Shown here: in pieces, positions 19,046 to 60,873 of the stretch | Position numbering within the stretch: position 1 is the first letter of the stretch | Layout of the letters: the number at the start of each line of letters is the position of its first letter | From: Blepharisma japonicum | Taxonomy: Eukaryota > Ciliophora > Heterotrichea > Heterotrichida > Blepharismidae | Assembly: GCA_949751835.1 (NCBI GenBank) | Contig: CATKHK010000041.1 | Span: 62,001 to 126,000, forward strand | Direction: 5' to 3' | Length of the DNA: 64,000 bases | Made by a program: the position numbers and the translations under genes | Notes under the pieces: generated by a model | The model's database searches: none | Seen by the model: only the letters and a program-made list of their open reading frames with translations | What the model was told of the DNA's origin: nothing

Positions 19046-20947
19046 CTACTCGGCAATAAAAGTCCAATTTTCCAGCCTGTTTCCGTCACTTTCAGGAGAA
19101 TGCTGTCTTCCTCGAACTTTATATTGTGGCATATTCGTAGGTGGGATAAATTTTCTGCCAGGTTTTGGAGGTTTTAGCTCCCTTTTCATGACTTTCGCCC
19201 AGTCAATCCCGTTAAAAAACTCATATCTTTTGATTTCTTCTGCGTCATAATGGCTTCCTAGTCTTCTATTCGGGTCCCTTTCTAGCAGCCCTTTTAATAG
19301 ATTTTTAGCATCTGGACTTAGAAAAGGAGGAAGCTTTAATTTTGCGTTTTGGATGTTATAGAAAAGCTGTTCCCTATTATTTGCATAATAAGGTGGGGCT
19401 CCTACAAGCATTTCGTATAGTAAAACTCCTAATAAATACCAATCCACAGCTTTCCCATGCCCTTTTCTTTTAAGCATCTCTGGCGCTAAATATGCAACAC
19501 TCCCACAAAACGATTTCGCTGAATTATTATCATAAACCCCTTCTTTCGATAACCCAAAGTCAGTAAGCATTGCATGTCCTTGGGCATCTAATACTACATT
19601 ATCTGGCTTTAAATCTCTATAAATAATATCTCTTTTATGTAGCTCTTCTAACGCTAATAAAATTTCACATAAATAAATTCTTGCTCTTTTCTCTTCAAAC
19701 CTTTTTTCTTTTACTATATAAGACGTCAAATCACCTCCAGGGCAATAATCAAGTATTAAAAATAATTTATCAGTAGTCTGAAATGCATATTTTAGCCCTA
19801 CAATAAAAGGATGATTAAAATAGCTCATCACATTTCTTTCTGTCAGGGCATATTTTACTAGATTTTGGCCTATAATTTTATTTTTTCTCAAAATTTTCAT
19901 AGCATATAGCTTGTCAGTGCCTATTTTTTTTACTAAAAATACCTCCCCAAAGCTTCCTTTTCCCAGCTGAGAAATTGCTTCAAAATCGCTAGCAGTCACT
20001 TTTTTCTTTTCAATTTTTTCTTCTTCATCAAAAACTGGGACTTTTGATGCTTTTTCTTTGCCTTTATCATTAGGGATAAATGGTGTTGATAGTCTTTGCA
20101 TCATTTGCTCGACTTCTGCTTCTTCAAAGGTCTGTATTTCGATAGTCTCATCTTCCTGCGAAGGCAGTGGGGAATCTGGGACAGCTTTTTGTGTCTGCTT
20201 ATTAAAAGCTGCTATAAGTGGCTGATACCCATAGTCTATTGCAATATCTAATGGTTTTTTCCCTTTGATATCTGCTATATCAGTTCTTGCGCCTGCAGAG
20301 AGTAGGATTTTTGTGACTTTTTTCTTACCATTTAAGCATGCAATATGTAGAGGAGTCTGCCAATTATTGTCCTGGGAGTTTATATCTCCATTTTCAGCTT
20401 TTTCTAATAAAGCTTCTATTACTTTTACATTTCCGATTTCTACAGCTAAATGTAAAGGGGTTTTATTGTCTTCTCCTCGAAATGACAGCTGAGCCTTTAA
20501 TGATCCGTAGACTTTTTCATCGAGTAAACTTCTACAGAGGTCAGGGTCAGCTGTTTCTATAGCTTCTCAAAGCATTTCATTCATTTTTCGTTTATTTGAG
20601 TATAAATGTTTAGGGTTTCTTATAGGCTCTGTGTGGAATTGGCTTAGATCTTTGTCGTTGAAATTTTGATCTTGGTAGACTGCTTGGGTTTTTTCGGTGA
20701 CTGTTAAGGATTTTTTTCTTGTAAATTTTGGGGAAGTCTCATCATGTGTAATAGGCTTTTGGATAGTTTTTTTGGGGTTTTTAGACTTGCTATAATGAGA
20801 TATATTACTTGCATCTTCTGCTGTTTTATTTTGACTGTCAAAATGGTTAGATGACATAAAATTATCGATGTCTATAGATGGACGAGCTTGATAGCACGCT
20901 AACCCTGATAGAAGCTTACGTAGTCCTGCGAAAAGTCCTCCTTCCAT
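19046..20947 (-). CDS. ankyrin-repeat AGC-family Ser/Thr protein kinase
   Basis: 633 residues with TGA read as Trp in EMLWEAIETADPDL. The order is a Ser/Lys-rich N-terminus (1-125), ankyrin repeats (~127-255; TPLHLAVEIGNVKVIEALLE, TPLHIACLNGKKKVTKILL, KPLDIAIDYGYQPLIAAF), an acidic linker, then the kinase domain (~321-580). Glycine loop GKGSFGEV, catalytic Lys ~351, YRDLKPDN (Asp ~445), DFG ~463-465, APE ~488-490. An AGC C-tail ends in a hydrophobic-motif-like ENWTFIAE. The YRDLKPDN variant and C-tail place it in the AGC group near PKA/PKB/PKC. The ATG at 20947 (MEGGLFAGLRKLLSG) is preferred to the upstream in-frame ATG at 20983. Confidence 0.92.
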
Positions 20948-22752
20948 GTTATTAAGATTACAGATAAATAATTTAATTTGCATTTAATAGCAATTATTAA
21001 ATAAACGCATCCCACCAATATTGATATAAAAACTTGATAAATATAATAAATTAGCTAAAATTTATTTTGTTTAAAAAGTTTATTTAACTATGGCTCTTAA
21101 AAACCTTGGAAACTACAGGATTTGCTTAAAATTCGAACAAAAGATTTAAATATGAAAAAAACCTCTATATGTCATAGTGAAAAGAAATCATTATCTCCTG
21201 CAAATGTGCAAACTAATGAGTAAATTTCCTATTAAATTTAAACGATAAAAAATTTTTCACTCATATAAGCGTTACACATAATACACTCCTTAGAATACCA
21301 AAAGAGAGAGTCATATAAAAGAGCACGTGCTATTACCATATAAGAAACATATCAATATCTCATATTAACAGCTAAACTAGGAAGACCATAAAATAGGAAC
21401 CCTTGGCAAACTATTGTGTAAAAATGATAAATGCCTGCCTCATAGGTTTATAACATCCAATATATTATTAAATAATGCATTCAGCCATATCATAGAAAAG
21501 CACAAAAAGTTCGTTTTTTAATGAAATAGGGTTTTTTTAGGCGCAAAAAAATGTCAAAAGGTAACTCAAACAAACTGTACTTCTTTGTGTATTTAGATAC
21601 CAAATTTTCTATCAGAAACATATGCCAAAGTGTGCAACAAATTGCCTAAATCTTATACGAAATCAAGCTATACGTCTCACTGTTTTTTTCTATTCTGCAG
21701 AAATATAAAGAAGAACATCATGTATCCTAAAATTAAGAATCAATTCTTTTATAGTGATAATACAACCATTATTTCACTATATCCCCCATAAATTGGAACT
21801 CATTAACAAAAAAAAAAATTTTTAGCATAAATTTTGGCACTCATTATTTATGTTTTACTGTAGATAGTTTGTTGGAATGAATTTTGAATTTATTGTATAA
21901 TGATTTAAATAGATGGCATGATTCTATAGCAAATTATAATGATATTATTATTAAAGTCTATTTCTAATTAAAAATTCTAGTTCTTATTGCTAGCACGAGC
22001 CGTTACTATATTGAACCATCTAACACTTATTTTATCTTAAATTGATGCAAATTAATTTATCATAAATTAAATATTTGATGTCATTTTTGATGCTTAAAAT
22101 ATTTTTGATTCCTTAATTACAGCTGCAAAGGTTATTTTAACAAATTAGAACTTAGAAGAATGAAAAATGAAAAAATGGAAAATAGAAAGTTCGAAGAAAA
22201 TATAATTAAAAGTGTGCGATTAGGATTAGGAAATAGAAATCTGAATCAAAAAGTTTGAAACATAAAATTAAAGGTATGGGTCTAGTTAAAATAGAAACAA
22301 AATATAAGCTCAATGACTAAGCTTCAATTATTTAATTAATTACATTATTGTTTCTCTTGTTTATCTGGAAGGCTAATTAATAATCTCTGTCAAAACGATA
22401 GATTAATATAGAAGGGTGGTCTTGCATTCATATAAATTATATATATATAATTTTCTCTGATTTTTTATTGTTGGAGGTATTATTGATAGTTTTTGTGCTC
22501 ATGCCTGCTACTGATATTATTCTAAATGGCCTAAGCGCTTTTTAGGCTCAAAAATCCCTGGAATTTAAAAAATTTAAAAATTTAAATTTTAGTGCTATTT
22601 AATATTTTTTGCGAAATCATCCAACAATATCAAGATTAATAAAATTTATTACGATTTCTACCTAATTTATTATGAGAATTTCTATCAATTAATTTTCCTA
22701 ACTCCAGTTTTTTTCATTTATCAAGTCTTATATTGCTTATTTATTAATAAAA
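20948..22752. other. long divergent intergenic region
   Basis: 1.8 kb between two divergently read genes. It is AT-rich with many stops in all frames and contains an AT-only microsatellite-like tract near 22440. No gene, RNA or repeat copy recognised. Confidence 0.5.
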
Positions 22753-25700
22753 ATGTCACTTGAAAATATTCCATTCATATTCTGGAACAAGAATAGCCAA
22801 GGCTTAATCCATAACATTACATGTGCCTCTATCAAGGATAAAAAAATTTGTACGGGATGTGATTCTGGTGAAATTTGTATATGAACTCAAATTCAAGATA
22901 AATTTCTCCCAAATGTGATCTGCACAATAGGAAAGGACATCGAGTGTCGCGCCCTCAGCTTTATTACCCCTTTGAATTCTGATTTAATTAGCTGCGATCT
23001 GTGCATTGCTTCTCTTCATGCTGACAGTATCATTAGATGCTGAGACATCAGAGATGGGCGATGCATAATTTCTTCAGAAAATGGGACACTGCCAAATTCT
23101 ACAAGGCTCGATATGATGATCACTATTCAGCAACGATTTTTGGCGATTTCTGGAGAAGTTGTGAATATTTTCTTAACTGACAGCTGGACGATGGAAATTT
23201 TGGCTACATATACGATGGATAACAAGGTACAATGGATTTCAAGCTGAAATCATTTGGGAAATGATTATCTTGTAGGGTCAGATTTAGGAGGAAAAATCGA
23301 ATTTTGAAAAATCCCAGATTTGAAAAATTTTGTGTATGGAAAAGACGATTTTCCAGGGTTTAAGCTTGATTCTGCCCATAAGGTCCATACTGATGAAATC
23401 CCAACATCATTTTGTTTTTCCCAGACTGATTCGATAATGGCTATTGCTCATGCGAAAAGCATACAATTTTTGCATGAAGACTGAATCTTTTCAAAAGCCC
23501 AAGAAAATGCGTATTTGGAGCTGGACAAGCCGATAATTTCAATTGGATTTTCTTATTATTATTTTTTTGTTCTATTGAATGATGGGGTTTTATTGAGATA
23601 TGAGTCTATGAATATTTTAAATGAAATAACAGAAGATGAATCGAGTATAAGTCGCTCAGGATCAAAAATCATGACTGTTTTGGTAAATGATGAATATAAC
23701 CTAAATAGCTTGGAAAGTGAAACCACATATGTAGATAGAAAATTTAATAATGCAGTTTTTTACAATGATTTTATCATTTCTTATAAGCATCAATCAATTA
23801 TAGTTTTGAATTTACTTGATTTTAAGCCTGATAAGATTACCAATACCATTTTTATGCAATTTTCACTAAAATCTATAGGCCATGAAAGCTATGCAGACAG
23901 TAGATTGCATCATTTATTCAAAGAAAACGAAATAATCACTGTTAGCACTGTAGCACTCACTGATAAATGGCCATTTTATTTAATTGGAACTTCTCTAGGG
24001 AATATTTATGTGTGCCCATTTCAGCCTAACCAACTTGTCTATACCTATTCCTATCATAAATCTCCTATAACCTGCATTTATTTAACAAAAAACAAGCTCG
24101 TTACTTGTGGAAAAGACAGCCTTATGTGTATATGGGAATTTTCAATAGAAAACCACGAAATTGAAGCCAAAAGTCCAGAAAAGCAAAACGAAGTATACCC
24201 AAAAACCCCGAGAATGTTTTTTAGGACACAAACAAATTACAACAACCAAAATAGTTCTATAATCCGTCCAGAAGTGAAGCAGAACCACCCTGAGCAAGTA
24301 ATCCCTATTCATACCTCTGCAGTCAAAAAAGTAATAGAAATTTCAATTTTAGGTGAAAATAACAGCCATTCTATTTTGGATTATTGGAAGAGGATTATTT
24401 TATCACAATGCAAAGATGGATCTGTTTTGCTGATTTCTCTTATAACAAATAATATTCTTTGCTATTTTCAGCCCCTTCAGTCAAATGTAGTTGAAGCTCA
24501 TTTATTATTAGCCCAAAATTACTTATTTATTATATGCGACAACCAGAAACTCTATATTTTTGATACCGCAATTCAAGCTTTAGAAAGAGCTATCCCTATG
24601 GACCAAATCCATATTATCCTAAACAAAGAAATAGAGACTCCTTTGTCTCCAGTCAAGGAAAAAGAAAAAGAAGTCTCCTCATATATCCACAAACTCTTAT
24701 GAAACCATATAAAATTTCAATGTGAAGAAGGCTATAAAGCCCCTATTACAGTTGACCAAATTTCTATTGGTGGATCTGAATTTTTGCTTCTTCATGCTAA
24801 TGTTTCGAGCGCCATAAAGCGGATTAATGAAAATTCCTTAAGATTGTCTGAGGCTGAATACTTATTAGGGCTAATAACATGCTGAAAAGCTGAGTGTAAA
24901 GGCCATACTTCGCTTAAAGAGTATTTAAAAAAATATTTAAGTTTTGAAGAACCTTTGGTCTCTTGTCATATCGGTGTAAGAGGCTACAATAAATGCTATT
25001 CCTTTATGCTTCCTATATGTAGTGATAAATATGAAATTTCTGGCTATTTAACTAGCTGCCTATTAGGCTCCAGCTTGGCTTTTGCGTATGCATTTCAACG
25101 GAAAGATGGCTCAACCCGCAGAAAGCTGAAGCAATTCATGAATTCCCATCTATCCTTCCACGAAAACTACAAGCCACCTGATATCTCTGCTTTAGTGATT
25201 CAATATTTAAACGGAAACTTAGCAAGCGGTTTCTTAATTAAACAAGTTTTACCTTACCTAGAAAACAGAAAAAAAACGAATTTAGTGAAATCCTGTATTT
25301 TTTTATTAGAAAATAAAGCAGAAACAGAAAGCAAAAATGTGTCATTTATTGAAGCTTTATATGTATCAATTTTAGGGTTGTTTTGTAATGAAAATAGAGA
25401 TTTAAATGCGAAAGTGGTGCAGAATATTTTGAATTCGTTAAGAAATATGACGAAAACTGGGATATCACATTATGTTGCGATTGCTTCAAAAATAATTGGT
25501 AATGGGATTGGAGCTTGGAGACAATGTCTGAATGCAGAGCAGATCATGGACATTTGTAGAGAATTTTTAAGAGATGCAGGGAGTAATGATGCTGTTTATA
25601 AGAAAATTTTGTATAGAGGAGTCACTAAGATTGCAAGCCATGATTTTATGCTTTACTTGAGATTTTTGTCACATGATCTGGAAAATATGGAGGCTGATAA

Positions 25701-26283
25701 AAAATACCCAAAAACTTGCCTGTCCTCACTAAAGCAGCTTATAAATAGAAAATACGAAGAATTTCCCCGCTTCTTGCCTGATATCATTGAAGTTATCCTA
25801 AAAACTCTTAACCCCCACAACCCAATTCTAAGGAAAAATTGTTTAGAAAAAGCTAGCACCCTCCTAAAAAAACTTGTTCACAAGCTTCCAATGGTCGCTT
25901 TTAGCCAAGTAACCCAGCGTCTTGCTATAGGCACTCTTGATAAATTTATCGTTATTTATGACTTAAAAACTGCGTCTCAATGAAAAATTCTTGAAGGCCA
26001 CGAAGATGCTGTCTGTGCTATTGACTTCGACATAAAAGGCCATAAAATCGCTTCTTATTGTGCTATTGGCTGCACACTACGTATATTTAAGATAGAAAAA
26101 GGATTTTTCCAAGATATTTTATCATCGTCATCAAAACCGTCAAAAACTTTACCGTTGCCTAAGGTGATTAATTCTGCACAAAATTATAAGGAATTTTTAA
26201 ATATAGTGAAAATCGACTGGACGGTGACTGGTGATATAAGTCTTCGCAGAGAAGATGGGCAAACTTATGAAATTTCAGTATAA
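22753..26283 (+). CDS. WDR7 / rabconnectin-3-beta-like WD40 protein
   Basis: One continuous frame of 1176 residues when TGA is Trp (at least eight internal TGAs, several as the Trp closing a WD repeat, such as EICIW and IRCWD). N-terminal WD40 repeats (~1-480) are followed by a helical-repeat middle (~650-1020) and a short C-terminal WD40 pair. The C-terminus (RLAIGTLDKFIVIYDLKTAS ... VKIDWTVTGDISLRREDGQT) matches the distinctive end of WDR7. With DMXL1/2, WDR7 forms rabconnectin-3, which promotes V-ATPase assembly on endosomal and secretory membranes. Shorter than the ~1490 residues of the animal protein. Convergent with the PP2C gene, 6 bp apart. Confidence 0.82.
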
Positions 26284-52647: not shown

Positions 52648-54093
52648 TTATTTTATTTGATAATATTCTTGTGATGAAGGATCATAGTAGCAATTTAAAA
52701 TTGAATCATAAATCAATTGTTTTTCTGTGGAATCTTTCGGAATTCGAAGATTTTGTATTGAAGCTAACCCAGAAAAAGGAGGAGTAAAAGGCCGAAATTT
52801 CGTCATTTCTGATAGATTTTTATCATAAAAGTTAGGAAGAGGCACAGGAGAGGTAGAATTTTTTGTCATTTGAGCTGGGGCAGGGAAAAAGTTATGCTCA
52901 ATTAGATCATGGGGATTATTTTGAGGGGATTGTCTGTCAATCTCAATTTCTTCTTGGATTGATTGATTTACAAAGGAGCTGCAATTTGACAAGTTTTTAC
53001 TTGATTTTTCAATAACAATTGATTCTTTTATTTCTGATTCGTTAAGATCATCAGTATGATTTTCGTTGGAAAATTTTGAATTAATTTCGTGATCATCACT
53101 GAAGCCTCTGAATCTTTTTTGCTTTGGGCTATTTTCTGTATTTAAGGTTATGTTTTGGTTTTCCTCATTTGATATTGAATGCTTTTTTGGCCTGTGAGAC
53201 ACTTTTTTTATTGGAATTCCTGCTGAGCCTTTTCTTTTAGAGGCTTGTTGTGGAGTTTTGTCGATATTTTTGGATTTATTTAATAAGCTTTTATTGAAAA
53301 ATTCATTCGTTGTATTCGATTGAAAATTTCGCCTCGGCGATACAGTTTTTTGCCTTGATTTCGGCAAATTTCTAATCGGAGCTGTTGCTACAGGAATTCT
53401 ATCCTCAAATACAATTTCTTCTTTTTTGCTCCCTACAGAAAGACCACTTCTTTCTGATTCAGGAGTCATTACAAGCTCAGGGCCAACATTTTGATTCGAA
53501 AATTGCACTCCTGCTGGGAATTCCAAAACCTTTGGAACATTTTCATAATTTTGTGGATTTTTTGCAGAATTTTCTGATAATTCAAACAATGGATTTCTCA
53601 TTGTAAAAATTCTTCGAATTTTGCAAAAAGAATGAACTGTGATTGAATCTAAAGACCTAAAAGTGTTCCCAGGAAAGCAAGCTGTAACAAAACTAGGCAT
53701 ATCTATTGATATGCAAGACCATGCACCTCTTAAGAAAGGCCAATTTGGTATTCTTGAATGCAAAGGGGCTGAAATTATTTCTTTTGATGCTGATGAAAAT
53801 AAAAGCCTTCGTTTTGTGCTAGAAATATCTGAAATTACAAGTTCCAATGCAAAAGGCTGGCCTGGGGTTAAATATACCTGCAATATCAAATAAGGCTGAA
53901 CCAATGCCAACGACTGCTTATCGTTACTTGGTAGTTGAAGTTTCGAATTATGAGAATCCAATGAAATGATATAACCTTTCACTGATTTTTCAAATAATTT
54001 CCATTTGGGCTTGTTTATACCCCATTGAGGGGATTTGTCACTTGGATTTACAAGTTCAACAAACGGTCCACTTTGAAATGAGTTTTGATACAT
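52648..54093 (-). CDS. CFAP20DC: CFAP20-domain protein (CFAP20DC/C3orf67-like)
   Basis: 481 residues. The N-terminal ~165 residues form a CFAP20/DUF667 domain: MYQNSFQSGPFVELVNPSDK, KLQLPSNDKQSLALVQPYLI, LELVISDISSTKRRLLFSSA, ISAPLHSRIPNWPFLRGAW, then FRSLDSITVHSFCKIRRIFT. The rest is disordered and Ser/Asn/Lys-rich. The start at 54093 aligns with the family (MxxNxxQxGPFVE); an upstream ATG at 54138 is in frame. CFAP20 family members bind axonemal or centriolar microtubule inner junctions. The gene shares a 126-bp promoter with the LZTFL1-like gene. Confidence 0.88.
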   Translation of the reverse strand: MYQNSFQSGPFVELVNPSDKSPQWGINKPKWKLFEKSVKGYIISLDSHNSKLQLPSNDKQSLALVQPYLILQVYLTPGQPFALELVISDISSTKRRLLFSSASKEIISAPLHSRIPNWPFLRGAWSCISIDMPSFVTACFPGNTFRSLDSITVHSFCKIRRIFTMRNPLFELSENSAKNPQNYENVPKVLEFPAGVQFSNQNVGPELVMTPESERSGLSVGSKKEEIVFEDRIPVATAPIRNLPKSRQKTVSPRRNFQSNTTNEFFNKSLLNKSKNIDKTPQQASKRKGSAGIPIKKVSHRPKKHSISNEENQNITLNTENSPKQKRFRGFSDDHEINSKFSNENHTDDLNESEIKESIVIEKSSKNLSNCSSFVNQSIQEEIEIDRQSPQNNPHDLIEHNFFPAPAQMTKNSTSPVPLPNFYDKNLSEMTKFRPFTPPFSGLASIQNLRIPKDSTEKQLIYDSILNCYYDPSSQEYYQIK

Positions 54094-55223: not shown

Positions 55224-55583
55224 TTAATAAAGAAAATACATTTTGCTGATGTTTTGATTTTCTTCTGCCCCAGGAAATAAAACTCCTTCTCCATACTGAG
55301 TTGACTTATCCTTTTTAGCGTAAACTTCTATACTTATAGGCTGAAATTTAAAAGCTTTATGGCTTTTTCTTTTGCTTTTCTTTACAGTCTCCTCGCGTAA
55401 ATAAAATTTTTGGGCATGACTTCTGACTTGAACTGGAGTCCTTGTTCCTAAGAAGTCAGCAATTTTTTTCCAGTCTTTTCCATAAAAAGAAACTCCTCTC
55501 ATAAAATCTTCATGCTCTTTTAAGGTCCAGCGGCCAGTTCTTCCTTCGTCTGTGCTTGACTCACACTCTGAGTATACTTTCAT
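55224..55583 (-). CDS. single Myb/SANT protein of the SHAQKYF class
   Basis: 119 residues. One Myb repeat at ~16-66 (GRWTLKEHEDFMRGVSFYGK, DWKKIADFLGTRTPVQVRSH, AQKFYLR) with the diagnostic VRSHAQKFY helix 3 of SHAQKYF factors, followed by a basic KKSKRKSHK segment (likely nuclear signal). In plants this class includes CCA1/LHY and MYBS transcription factors. Here it is compact and probably a DNA-binding regulator. Confidence 0.92.
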   Translation of the reverse strand: MKVYSECESSTDEGRTGRWTLKEHEDFMRGVSFYGKDWKKIADFLGTRTPVQVRSHAQKFYLREETVKKSKRKSHKAFKFQPISIEVYAKKDKSTQYGEGVLFPGAEENQNISKMYFLY

Positions 55584-55706: not shown

Positions 55707-58700
55707 TTAATGCTTAATTCCACGTTTCTTAGAGCCACGGCATTCTTGAATTAATATAAAAAGCTCTCCTTCTCGAGCACGTCTAGCCTCATATGAATCT
55801 TTCATCTGCTTTTGGATTTGCAAAATAATTCTTCCTAGTGCATTTAGCTTTTTATCAACATGATCTTCTGCTTTTTCAAGCTCATTGCCTGTACAAATTT
55901 GTAAATATTTCTTTTTTCCTCTATTTTTCCTTCAGAATAGCAAAGTTTCTGCTTCAATCAGCATATCAATCAGTTCTTTAGCGTCAGCAATTTCACTGTT
56001 TTCTTTGACTCTTTCAAAAGTATCACCCATAAGCGAAATAAGTAAGCTGATCATAATGATTGGATTAAGCACAGTAAATACTCAATGACTTGCCCACATT
56101 AATAAAGAAACATACAAATCAGTGCTATAGTCTTTTATATTAATCCTCCAGGCCATAGTTGTCCAATCGAAATACTCATGATCTGATCCACCTATTAAGG
56201 CATATTGGGTTGTTGCAAAAGCAAGAGTTAAAAAGCATAAAATAATAAAGAAAGGCAACATATCATAAAATACAGTAAAAATCAGGTTAATCAGATACCG
56301 AGTGGGCTTGAAGATATTGAAATAAAGCGTTCCTCTGAACCATGATAGAGAAATGATAGCACCTAATAGAAAATGATTGTAATTACTAGTTCCAGAACTT
56401 ATTATTGACACATAAGCTACAAAAAGAGCTATTCTTAATAAATCAACTCAATTCCAAAAATCTTGCCAATAATAAATTCCGCCTACATTTATTTGGTATA
56501 ATTCATATAATGTTAAAATACAGCTCAAACCAAAAGGAATCATCACATAATAAGAGTCACCTTCAAACAAAGTTGCATATATTGACAGTAAAACTAAATA
56601 AGAAATATAAATAGAAGCTTGAAAATACATGATTCAGCTTAGTTTTCTCCATTTTTCATTGAGAATATATTGGATTATAGGCGTTTTAAGGATATTCCCA
56701 TTAGGGCATTTTCCTAAACTATCAAGAAAAGCTAAACTTTCTTTAGAGCCAGTAGTTAGATCTAATCTGACAAGCGAATTTAAATACATCACATCTTTTC
56801 CTTCTTGATCTGAAGAAAATTTTATTTTTTTACTAAAATTTTCAGATTTTGGCAAAATATATTCAGAGTGGATTATGCTAGGAAGCCTTGATTTTTTGTC
56901 ACAAAATTTCTTCAATGAGTGATGTTTACATTTCATTAAAATATTTTGATAGAATTTTTCAAGACCTGGAAATCCTTTCAAGTTCAGAGTTATTAGAGAG
57001 TCTTCAAAATAGTAAAAAGAATAAGGGTTTGTCGCTGCAATTTTATTCATTGCTGTGAAAAATGCATTAGTGCATTCTGTGTAAGATTTATTTAAGCATA
57101 TTGATAGCGGAGTTTCATTTTTTGAGGAAGGAAAAAAGCCATCTCCATATTCGATAGCTTTTTTTAAATGGCCTGACAAGTTAAAATAGGCGTAAAAGTG
57201 CAATGGATTTAAATGAAAAGGCTCAATTATTCACTGATCCATTTCTTTATTATAAGCTGGCTTCTCATTCATCATGATTTCTTTGATGTATCTCATAAAT
57301 TTATGCTTACCAAAATCTGGCCCATAAACTTTTATTGTCCCAGGCTTCAATGGGCTTTTAATAATTTTGATTTCTTTATCTAAAGCTAACGCAATATGAT
57401 TTTCTCCTGTTAAAAATATCATCGATTTTATTTTATTTTTGAATTTTATGGTAGCAACCCTTCCAAAATTTTTTAAATCGAAAATTGACATTTTCTGGTC
57501 TTCTGATGCAGCAAAAAAATATTTCCTATCTTGTGTACAATATATAGATCTCAATATTTCATTATGATAATTAACTGCTCTCAACATATGTTTATTTTGA
57601 ATTCCCCATATAATTAACTGTCCATTTCTATGCCCTATTAAAAGAATTTCTCCATTTCTTGTTACCACAATTGTTTGTACTCTTGTATTATTTCCTGCAA
57701 ATTCCATTAATATTTTTGAGTCTTTTAAATCGTGGCATAAAACAGTTCCACTGTCATCTCCACTATAAAGAGTAGAATTTTCATATAAATTCAGAGCTCA
57801 GACTTCTGCTCTATGTGAGCGAATTGTGTGATGTGGTGAGAAATTATCCATGTTTCAGATAATTATTCGAAATCCAACGTCTCCAGTAATAAAAAATCGA
57901 TTGTCTGGGGTGCATAAAATTGCTCTGACTTCTCCATCAATTCCAGTTATTTCTTTTGTTTTTTCATTTTTTTCGAGATCTCATATGAGGATTCTTTGGT
58001 CGTCGGTGCAAGAGAATAAATAATCCTCATCTGGGGAAATAGCCATTGCATACATAGAAGATTCGTGGGGATATTCATAAAGCTTTTCACCTGATTCTTG
58101 GTCTCACACAATAATATTCATGTCTTCTGAGTTTGAATATATTTTTTTCCTTTTATTAGAATGAATTAAATTAAAAACAGTTTCTTTATGCCCCACAAGT
58201 AATTTACTACTATCAAAAGATGGGAATTTTCATATTAAAATCCTATAATCTTTCCCAAGAGAATAAATATGTTTTTCACTCAGACTTATAGTGATCCCTC
58301 TTACAGCTCTTTCATGGCCTTCCATAACAATTTCATCATGGTTTCTATTAATGCTCCATACTCTTACAGTTCTATCACTACTTCCAGACACTAGAACATT
58401 TTCATTCCCAGTAAATTTCATAGATTTTATACATCCAGTATGTCCTTTAAGCACTTTTATTATTTCACAAGTCTCAAAGCTCCAAATACTAATATTATTA
58501 TCCATATGACTAATAGCGAAATATTTTTTCTTTGGGGAAAATTTTACAAAAGTAATCACAGATACTGAACTATACAAAGTAAATTGCACTTGCTTAGTAG
58601 CAATAGAATAAATTTTAAACTCCCTGCTATCTCCAGCAGAAATTAAATGTAGCCCATCTCTACTAATGCATAAAGTATTTATTTTTGAGTCATGCTCATA

Positions 58701-59309
58701 AATTTCTTCGGAAATTCCATTACTATCTTTTCCATTTTTTGACGCTCTTACAGTAGAATCCCAACTGGACGAATATACATATGTTTCATCAGGAGAAATA
58801 GCTAACGCTGTTATTTTCCCTGTATGTCCTATATAAGCCTGCATAATTTCAAAAGTCAAAAGTGATAATTTTTTAATTGCCCAGCCAATCCCATTCCCGT
58901 TGATATCTTTTTCTTCAAAAGCTGCGAATGCAAACTGATCATTTTCACAAACATCAATTGCAGTAATTTTTTCATTAGTTCGGTAATCTTTTAACGTTTC
59001 TTTTTTGTCACAAATAACTATTCGTTTATTGGCGCCCAATGTAAATGAGTGTCCATCTCTCATGACTCTCATACAAGTTCCTTGAAAAGGGATTCTAACT
59101 TCTCTGGGAAGCTGATTGGAAATATAACGAAATGATGACTGAAAATCGCTGCGAATATCTAATGATGATTCTTGAATGATTTCTTGCATAAGAGGGTTAA
59201 TTTTGATAGCATTTTCGTTAGGTTCTGCAAAAGTAGCAGGAAGACTCGCAGTTTTAATAGGGTTAGATTCAAACTCTGGCTCTATTTTAGAGTTGTAACT
59301 GTTAATCAT
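55707..59309 (-). CDS. WD40 double-propeller fused to a TRP-like ion channel
   Basis: 1200 residues in one frame with about ten TGA-Trp codons. Residues ~70-690 hold about 13-14 WD40 repeats (YIGHTGKITALAISPDETYV, LKGHTGCIKSMKFTGNENVL ... RTVRVWS, HESSMYAMAISPDEDYLFSC ... ILIWDL). A short ankyrin-like stretch (LHFYAYFNLSGHLKKAIEYG) follows near 705. Residues ~880-1110 are a six-TM channel: S1 (FQASIYISYLVLLSIYATLF) to S6 (FTVLNPIIMISLLISLMGDT, then FERV), with a pore region after FFIILCFLTLAFATTQYALI. The S6-to-TRP-box-like segment is typical of TRPV/TRPA channels. A basic, helical C-tail follows. Start ATG at 59309. Confidence 0.87.
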
Positions 59310-59352: not shown

Positions 59353-60873
59353 TTAGCAACCTGTTGTAGATGCTTGGTAAGCTTCAAACCTGTTGTATTC
59401 TCCAGAAGGTGTAGGAATAGTAGGATCATAGTCCACTTCAATATATCCTTGCATCAATCTTGATCTTACGTTACTAAAAGTCGTTCCTGAAAGATATGGG
59501 AATGGGATCTTCGGGAACAAATAGCTTCCCTCATTGAATATCATATATTGCTTAAATAAATCTGTAGTTAGTCTTCCCAAATAGTAGGTATTAACATTGC
59601 CGACTTGTGCATTTGATTGGATTTGAACCAAATTGGAAATTATAGGGTTATAAGAATACCCAACAATTACAGTTTGGTTGAAGTAAATGTTGACTGAAAA
59701 AGTAATGGTTACATTATAAGCCAAAGGATAGCTCCATTCATTAGTGCTTTGGCTATAAACTAAGGTTTGTACAGTAAGTGGCAGTTTTCCTTGAATTCCA
59801 TAGCCACCTATAATATAGCATCTTGGAGTATCATAAAAAGTAACGTTAAGTGTTACTGGGGAATTAGGGTAAATTTTATTAAGCTCAGGAAAATATCCAC
59901 TATTGGTATTTAAAATATTAGGAAAACCTGCAGGTAAAGTATCTATTGTATAGTGGCCATATACTTTTAGTGTGGAATAATAATAAGAATCTATGGTAAA
60001 TTGGGTAATAAATACTTGGGATTGGCCGACATAAGCATTTGAATTTATAAAGCGATTAGGTAAGGCTACTGGAGGATTTATGGTAGGGATTGAAATTGAA
60101 GAGGAGGTTGTAGTTACTGTTCCGTTAACCCAGAATGAAACATAATTGTTTTGGCATGAAAGAGAAGCATTATAGTTAATAACTGGAGCTGCCACCCATG
60201 ATAAATCTGCTTTTACTTTAGTACCAGGCAATGTTGGCCAATAATTCGCCTTTGAAATATAGGAATTTGTCTGATTTTGGAATGCTGCAATAAAAAATGC
60301 AGTTGCATTATTTGATAAATAACTCGTAAGATTTGTCTGAATTGCAGTAACTATTGCTGTGCTGAGATTGGTTAAATTATACTGAGTATAATTCGTTATA
60401 ATGTAATTTAATTTGTTGATTGTTATTATAGGCAGGCCATTCCCATAAGAAACAGTTGTGAAAAATGTCAAATTTGCAGTAAAAGTTGTGTAGCCAGTTC
60501 CTGTATTATTTATTTTTTTGCCAACCTCTGAATAGCTATAGCTAATTGTCCCTGTAAAGTTATTTAATGTGAGATTCAGGTAATTTGGAGAAGATATCAT
60601 TACATTCACCAAATTTGCTGTAGACTTCATTGTAGAATTGAGCAGCACAATATTTGTTATATTGCAGACCACACTTGTCTTAGAATCCAAAGTTGTAAAG
60701 TTGAATTTGCCAAGCTTCGTGTATGACACATCTCCCAATGCGTTTGGAAGAATAGCGCGAATATTATTGGCAACATCGGTAAAAGACCTTGATATTACCA
60801 TTCCTGGGGTCACTGCAGACTTTACTAGTGATAAACACAAGACAAAGGCGAGAAAACATATTTTCGTCAACAT
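59353..60873 (-). CDS. secreted BPI/LBP-like glycoprotein
   Basis: 506 residues with a signal peptide (MLTKICFLAFVLCLSLVKSA) and about 25 N-glycosylation sequons. The start of the mature part, TPGMVISRSFTDVANNIRAI then LPNALGDVSYTKLG, resembles the N-terminal barrel of bactericidal/permeability-increasing and lipid-binding proteins ('PG...RIT.KGLDYA......L...L'). Beta-strand-rich throughout, with a cysteine pair pattern of the fold not obvious. It might bind bacterial or membrane lipids, fitting a bacterivorous ciliate; this is an inference. Stop at 59353, 43 bp before the channel gene's ATG on the same strand. Confidence 0.72.
   Translation of the reverse strand: MLTKICFLAFVLCLSLVKSAVTPGMVISRSFTDVANNIRAILPNALGDVSYTKLGKFNFTTLDSKTSVVCNITNIVLLNSTMKSTANLVNVMISSPNYLNLTLNNFTGTISYSYSEVGKKINNTGTGYTTFTANLTFFTTVSYGNGLPIITINKLNYIITNYTQYNLTNLSTAIVTAIQTNLTSYLSNNATAFFIAAFQNQTNSYISKANYWPTLPGTKVKADLSWVAAPVINYNASLSCQNNYVSFWVNGTVTTTSSSISIPTINPPVALPNRFINSNAYVGQSQVFITQFTIDSYYYSTLKVYGHYTIDTLPAGFPNILNTNSGYFPELNKIYPNSPVTLNVTFYDTPRCYIIGGYGIQGKLPLTVQTLVYSQSTNEWSYPLAYNVTITFSVNIYFNQTVIVGYSYNPIISNLVQIQSNAQVGNVNTYYLGRLTTDLFKQYMIFNEGSYLFPKIPFPYLSGTTFSNVRSRLMQGYIEVDYDPTIPTPSGEYNRFEAYQASTTGC

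Follow-up and report, generated by a model that had tools for sequence, protein, structure and literature searches.

WD40 repeats joined to a TRP-like channel in Blepharisma japonicum: signs of a TRP-like channel branch, little described so far, in large unicellular ciliates

TRP subfamilies are distinguished largely by their cytosolic ends. Of the tandem WD40 propeller proteins (2ymu, Utp12, Pwp2, APAF1, EML), we know of none that carries a channel. Within the TRP membrane domain, the sources, as far as their text was available, describe a Ca2+ coordination site made up of E788, Q791, Y799, N805 and E808 in TRPA1 (PMC8036557) and of E893, Q896, N918 and D921 in nvTRPM2 (PMC5976436), and report that mutation of TRPA1 E788 leads to the loss of Ca2+ potentiation (PMC9865456). 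According to the available part of PMC7431192, the site is somewhat conserved in TRPC and not conserved in TRPV, and an older TRPA1 structure had no notable similarity to it. Among the titles brought up by our literature search, which covered part of what is in print, none reports a WD40-TRP channel in ciliates; the accessible sections of PMC9942806 mention neither WD40 nor a channel, and those of PMC10946202 contain no WD40 or TRP, channels appearing there only as enriched terms.

The gene described here lies on contig C41 of the Blepharisma japonicum genome, within a window of 64,000 nucleotides (the whole stretch of DNA that was analyzed). On the minus strand, positions 55707-59309 form one unbroken frame of 1,200 codons from the ATG at 59309 to the TAA ending at 55707 under translation table 4, with 10 TGA codons read as Trp, as described for Blepharisma stoltei in the part of PMC9942806 that was available. 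Table 6, in which TAA and TAG encode Gln, was tried and rejected because it interrupts the frame, so the genetic code matters for this gene. The B. stoltei orthologue (P0002) is of equal length and aligns without gaps at 94% identity; therefore, no intron is expected in the focal gene. The original prediction of a single 1,200-codon frame was borne out, and so was its continuous domain order: within one gene, a WD40 region is followed by a weak ankyrin-like piece and then by a TRP-like S1-S6 channel (Table 1).

The interpretation that accompanied the prediction is partly supported. The main correction is one of scale, as the genome (45.2 Mb, 224 contigs) contains dozens of WD40-TRP genes. The Ca2+-site residues and the Gly-to-Lys change in the filter of the focal gene had also gone unnoticed, and the gating or localizing role proposed for the WD40 part is a hypothesis. 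When the channel halves of three paralogues served as queries, the genome yielded 86, 86 and 76 matches. The 86 matches of the first, merged, plus one additional place of the second amount to 80 places matching the channel half, 74 of them with at least 900 bp matched and 6 shorter. We read 48 of these loci whole (39, three and six), and in all 48 a long N-terminal region and the channel share one frame, with predicted proteins of 1,170 to 1,338 aa in 47 and of at least 1,517 aa in L015, where the frame reaches the end of the fetched stretch. One member of 1,338 aa (L039, G000:C41:127400-132400) is located ~4.5 kb beyond the right end of the window. Over the whole frame, eight paralogue pairs gave dN/dS values of 0.09 to 0.42, and all computable values for the separate halves were <0.5 (in three pairs dS was >1, and for one WD40 half it was saturated). 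Judged from these ratios, the family is under purifying selection in both halves. Conservation was assessed in 147 aligned rows, 42 from the genome itself and 105 others.

A word-based protein search, a method that misses distant relatives, retrieved 241 proteins at an E value of ≤0.001. Among the best 120 of the 241 and the rows of two other searches, the only organisms named were B. stoltei and Stentor coeruleus, most rows being environmental and a few ncbi rows carrying no organism. Databases label such proteins as "Ion transport domain-containing protein" or "WD40 repeat protein." In a tree of 57 rows (42 from the genome, 6 from B. stoltei and 9 from Stentor), the deep forks of which are weak, the Stentor rows fall into two groups among those of Blepharisma, so much of the family growth looks lineage specific. 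Three relatives of the channel half, P0096 and the Stentor proteins P0097 and P0098, have no Pfam domain listed. P0096 has no evident WD40 repeats on reading and contains additional hydrophobic segments, which may indicate a further architecture.

Table 1. Features of the WD40-TRP gene, with positions in the window; fractions refer to the 147 aligned rows
Feature	Residues	Position	Strand	Basis
Whole gene, ATG to TAA, TGA read as Trp	1,200 codons	55707..59309	-	Table 4 translation; gapless 94% B. stoltei orthologue P0002
WD40 region, probably two propellers (from length and tandem-propeller matches)	about 70-660	57330..59102	-	Pfam, repeat profile, structure-chain matches
Ankyrin-like stretch	701-753	57051..57209	-	Family profile, weak
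K886-W887, shortly before S1 (K in 146/147, W in 146/147)	886-887	56649..56654	-	Conservation
S1	893-911	56577..56633	-	Family-average hydropathy
S2	920-938	56496..56552	-	Family-average hydropathy
Putative Ca2+ site	E936, Q939, Y947, N953, D956	56442..56504	-	TRPA1 alignment; conservation; residues from available parts of PMC8036557 and PMC5976436
S3	954-972	56394..56450	-	Family-average hydropathy
S4, including R992	981-999	56313..56369	-	Conservation and family-average hydropathy
S5	about 1009-1038	56196..56285	-	Hydropathy
Selectivity-filter stretch NIKDY, with Lys1059	1057-1061	56127..56141	-	Alignment and conservation
S6	1073-1095	56025..56093	-	Alignments to solved channels and hydropathy
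Helix-like stretch after S6, with D1109 at the place of the Inactive/TRPM2 TRP-box Trp	1096-1126	55932..56024	-	Alignments and conservation

The N-terminal region matched the Pfam WD40 family with an E value of 2.5e-53, together with many other propeller families, and the EML_2 profile exceeded its cutoff there. Using a profile of 46 WD40 repeats from paralogues, with the focal protein excluded, we detected 9 repeats at ≥5 bits and 11 at ≥0 bits between residues 160 and 609, and none of 200 shuffles of residues 1 to 680 gave any WD40 stretch at 5 bits. The WD40 region claimed in the original prediction is confirmed, and its figure of 13-14 repeats is an estimate rather than a count, since it derives from the length of the region: ~590 residues at ~41 per repeat fit 14 blades, 11 repeats having scored ≥0 bits. 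Alignments to the tandem propeller proteins named above extend over up to ~330 residues, with no particular closeness to any one of them. A special kinship with one propeller family was sought and rejected, as many models score. Within the family, 12 of the 42 own-genome members have four or fewer strong repeats (one has none), and so do 3 of 6 further members; the platform is therefore not a uniform WD40 signature, and the propeller reading of the WD40-poor members rests on kinship because strong repeats are few there.

Between the WD40 region and the channel, the small ankyrin-like piece that had been predicted was found, at a weak level. When a profile of 38 paralogue channel halves was run against solved chains, its positions 9 to 61 matched ankyrin chains (5y4d, whole-sequence E value of 2.1e-8, no single stretch passing), TRPA1 ankyrins reaching 3.6 and 6.3 bits. 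Ank_2 appeared at an E value of ≤1 in 6 of the 38 paralogues, and the family consensus scored 18.1 bits against a cutoff of 27.3. No ankyrin array of the TRPA/TRPN/TRPV type was found before S1, only this stretch of ~53 residues. At the junction itself, P697 and N701 are invariant in an alignment of 15 relatives. That two adjacent genes split near 57200, or an assembly artifact, have been read as one is very improbable: the invariant junction, the single frame at 48 of 48 loci, the gapless B. stoltei orthologue of equal length and the selection acting on both halves (dN/dS of <0.5) all oppose it.

In the channel half, Ion_trans scored 33.4 bits (cutoff of 25), and the family average showed six hydrophobic segments. 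The focal sequence alone matched solved chains weakly (Inactive, E value of 0.045; TRPM2, 0.15; TRPV6, 0.36), with unrelated chains intermixed. The 38-half profile reached 284 distinct solved chains at an E value of ≤1, and the best 60 of the 284 were 58 TRP-superfamily chains and 2 ankyrin chains. TRPA1 came first (5.2e-11), followed by Inactive (2.5e-10), PKD2L1 and PKD2 (2.5e-9), TRPM8 (4.2e-9), a TRP-like channel that we take to be algal (5.9e-9) and TRPV3 (9.2e-9). A search with the family consensus placed the TRPM2 chanzyme, presumably of the choanoflagellate type, at the top (1.5e-8), with Kv1 chains from 1.6e-4 on. The complete S1-S6 with a TRP-like S6 that had been proposed is in agreement with all of this, and because of the profile and consensus matches to solved TRP chains, the channel half is assigned by its S1-S6 to the TRP superfamily. 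The TRP-box Trp after S6 is absent, with Asp in 132 of the 147 rows where Inactive and the TRPM2 chanzyme have Trp; the TRP box is missing from some TRP subfamilies as well. No melastatin region was seen among the Pfam matches (25 of 54 families listed), which are WD40 in the N-terminal part and only Ion_trans in the C-terminal half.

The best profile match, TRPA1, shares with the focal family the S1-S6 match, the site residues E, Q, Y, N and E/D at equal spacing and an ankyrin-like piece before the channel. It differs in its long ankyrin array, where the focal protein has WD40, and the focal protein lacks the TRP-box Trp at the aligned place. TRPM2 (including the chanzyme), the best consensus match, is identical in the alignment at E, Q, Y, N and D, and differs in that WD40 stands in the melastatin place and Asp replaces the TRP-box Trp. 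For TRPV (Inactive, TRPV3), the profile match spans from just before S1, including KW, through the region after S6; the differences lie in the Ca2+ site, not conserved in TRPV according to the available part of PMC7431192, and in the long ankyrin array, absent from the focal protein. PKD2 and PKD2L1 (TRPP) share the S2-S6 match and an LGDFD-like filter, and differ from the focal family in having a domain between S1 and S2 and E instead of Q in the S2 motif.

The PKD_channel scores (10 of 38 paralogues at an E value of ≤1; 32.8 bits for the consensus, above the cutoff of 22.4) led us to weigh a polycystin origin, or more broadly a channel half related to polycystins or single-domain voltage-gated channels rather than to the TRPA/TRPM kind. 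The LGDFD filter, as in PKD2L1, the Kv1 matches and the missing TRP-box Trp would also fit such a relationship. However, the gap between S1 and S2 is ~8 residues by hydropathy, so a domain of the TRPP/TRPML type is absent and there is no space for one, the top matches are TRPA1 and Inactive for the paralogue profile and TRPM2 for the consensus, and an ankyrin-like piece precedes the channel. We consider this relationship unlikely.

The focal protein contains the residues of the S2-S3 Ca2+ site of the TRPA1/TRPM2/TRPM4/TRPM8 type, in register with those of TRPA1 and at equal spacing in the profile alignment. The complete EQYND set is present in 111 of the 147 rows (28/42 own and 83/105 other) and missing from 14 of the 42 own rows. 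Conservation reaches 85% in 36 of 456 columns, and four of the five site columns belong to this group (P = 1.6e-4; P = 8.9e-4 within residues 900 to 1099, both values treating columns as independent). PKD2L1 has E, E, Y, N and D at the same columns of the profile alignment, and the S2 Glu and S3 N-x-x-D also occur in voltage-gated channels; hence only the Q tells for a TRPA/TRPM-type site, and the Q939 column shows the lowest conservation among them (124/147). Control of the WD40-TRP channels by Ca2+ through this putative site seems likely.

We favor, with a probability of roughly 60%, the reading that the protein is a subunit of the TRP superfamily, closest to TRPA/TRPM in the S2-S3 site and probably a Ca2+-modulated cation channel, with a WD40 double propeller where those channels have a long ankyrin or melastatin region. 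The subunit would assemble as a tetramer, and cytosolic Ca2+ at E936, Q939, N953 and D956 would open or potentiate the channel. The propellers may bind partners or the cytoskeleton, and would act on the pore via the ankyrin-like piece and the pre-S1 segment. A typical family member would thus be a Ca2+-sensitive cation channel, and the focal member, with its filter Lys, would more likely function in mixed tetramers, with conduction altered or reduced.

Position 1059 of the filter is Gly in 128 of the 147 rows and Lys only in the focal protein and its B. stoltei orthologue, the nearest paralogue (L002) retaining Gly. In a homotetramer the filter would be surrounded by four lysines, which should impede the passage of cations; conduction by the focal member may be altered or absent. 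A strongly positive pore caused by Lys1059 was considered and rejected, since the pore loop carries an ordinary net charge (-3 versus a median of -4, with 70 of the 147 rows equal or higher). The filter Gly is missing in 8 of the 42 own members, of which L007 to L009, L015 and L022 also lack the full Ca2+ site and L001, L014 and L031 keep it. L022 (G000:C51:243000-248300) has lost its filter stretch and most of the Ca2+-site residues while its frame is still open, and is perhaps a nonconducting subunit.

Alternatively, the protein could be a WD40 scaffold anchored in the membrane through a channel-like domain that has lost conduction, in the focal member if not in others, and serve as a regulatory or dominant-negative subunit. 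The restriction of the filter Lys to two orthologues and its retention across a species split at 94% identity would fit, as would the members lacking the filter Gly, L022 included; but S6, S4-S5 and the Ca2+-site residues are intact and the pore-loop charge is ordinary, which makes this scaffold doubtful. The simplest account of the focal member is that it forms mixed tetramers with Gly-filter kin, because this fits both the intact core and the retained Lys1059. A wider proposal, possible and put forward tentatively, is that heterotrichs have a TRP branch of their own, with a WD40 double propeller in place of the ankyrin array and an expansion to some 75 genes in one genome, whose products would be Ca2+-gated sensory subunits mixing in tetramers, the filter-Lys members tuning selectivity or silencing the pore.

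Elsewhere in the window, positions 22753-26283 (plus strand) encode a protein of 1,176 aa that matches WD40-type propellers close to each end; none of its 15 Pfam hits is to a channel family. The minus strand encodes an ankyrin-repeat kinase (19046-20983), a CFA20-domain protein (52648-54093), a Myb-like protein (55335-55583) and, upstream of the channel gene, a protein with an LBP/BPI match below the cutoff (59353-60873). Outside the window, adjacent Ion_trans matches form same-strand clusters at G000:C16:129119-146011, C71:204628-225821 and C95:119746-124335, as if these were tandem arrays of multidomain voltage-gated-type channels.

The WD40-TRP genes suggest that large unicellular ciliates have a branch of TRP-like channels that has been little described. 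A TRP branch that combines WD40 propellers, dozens of paralogues per cell and a retained Ca2+ site would extend these channels by a new kind of input module, and would offer a candidate set of sensors for touch, light avoidance and contraction in Blepharisma and Stentor. The differences among the paralogues at the filter and at the Ca2+ site make them a natural mutant series.
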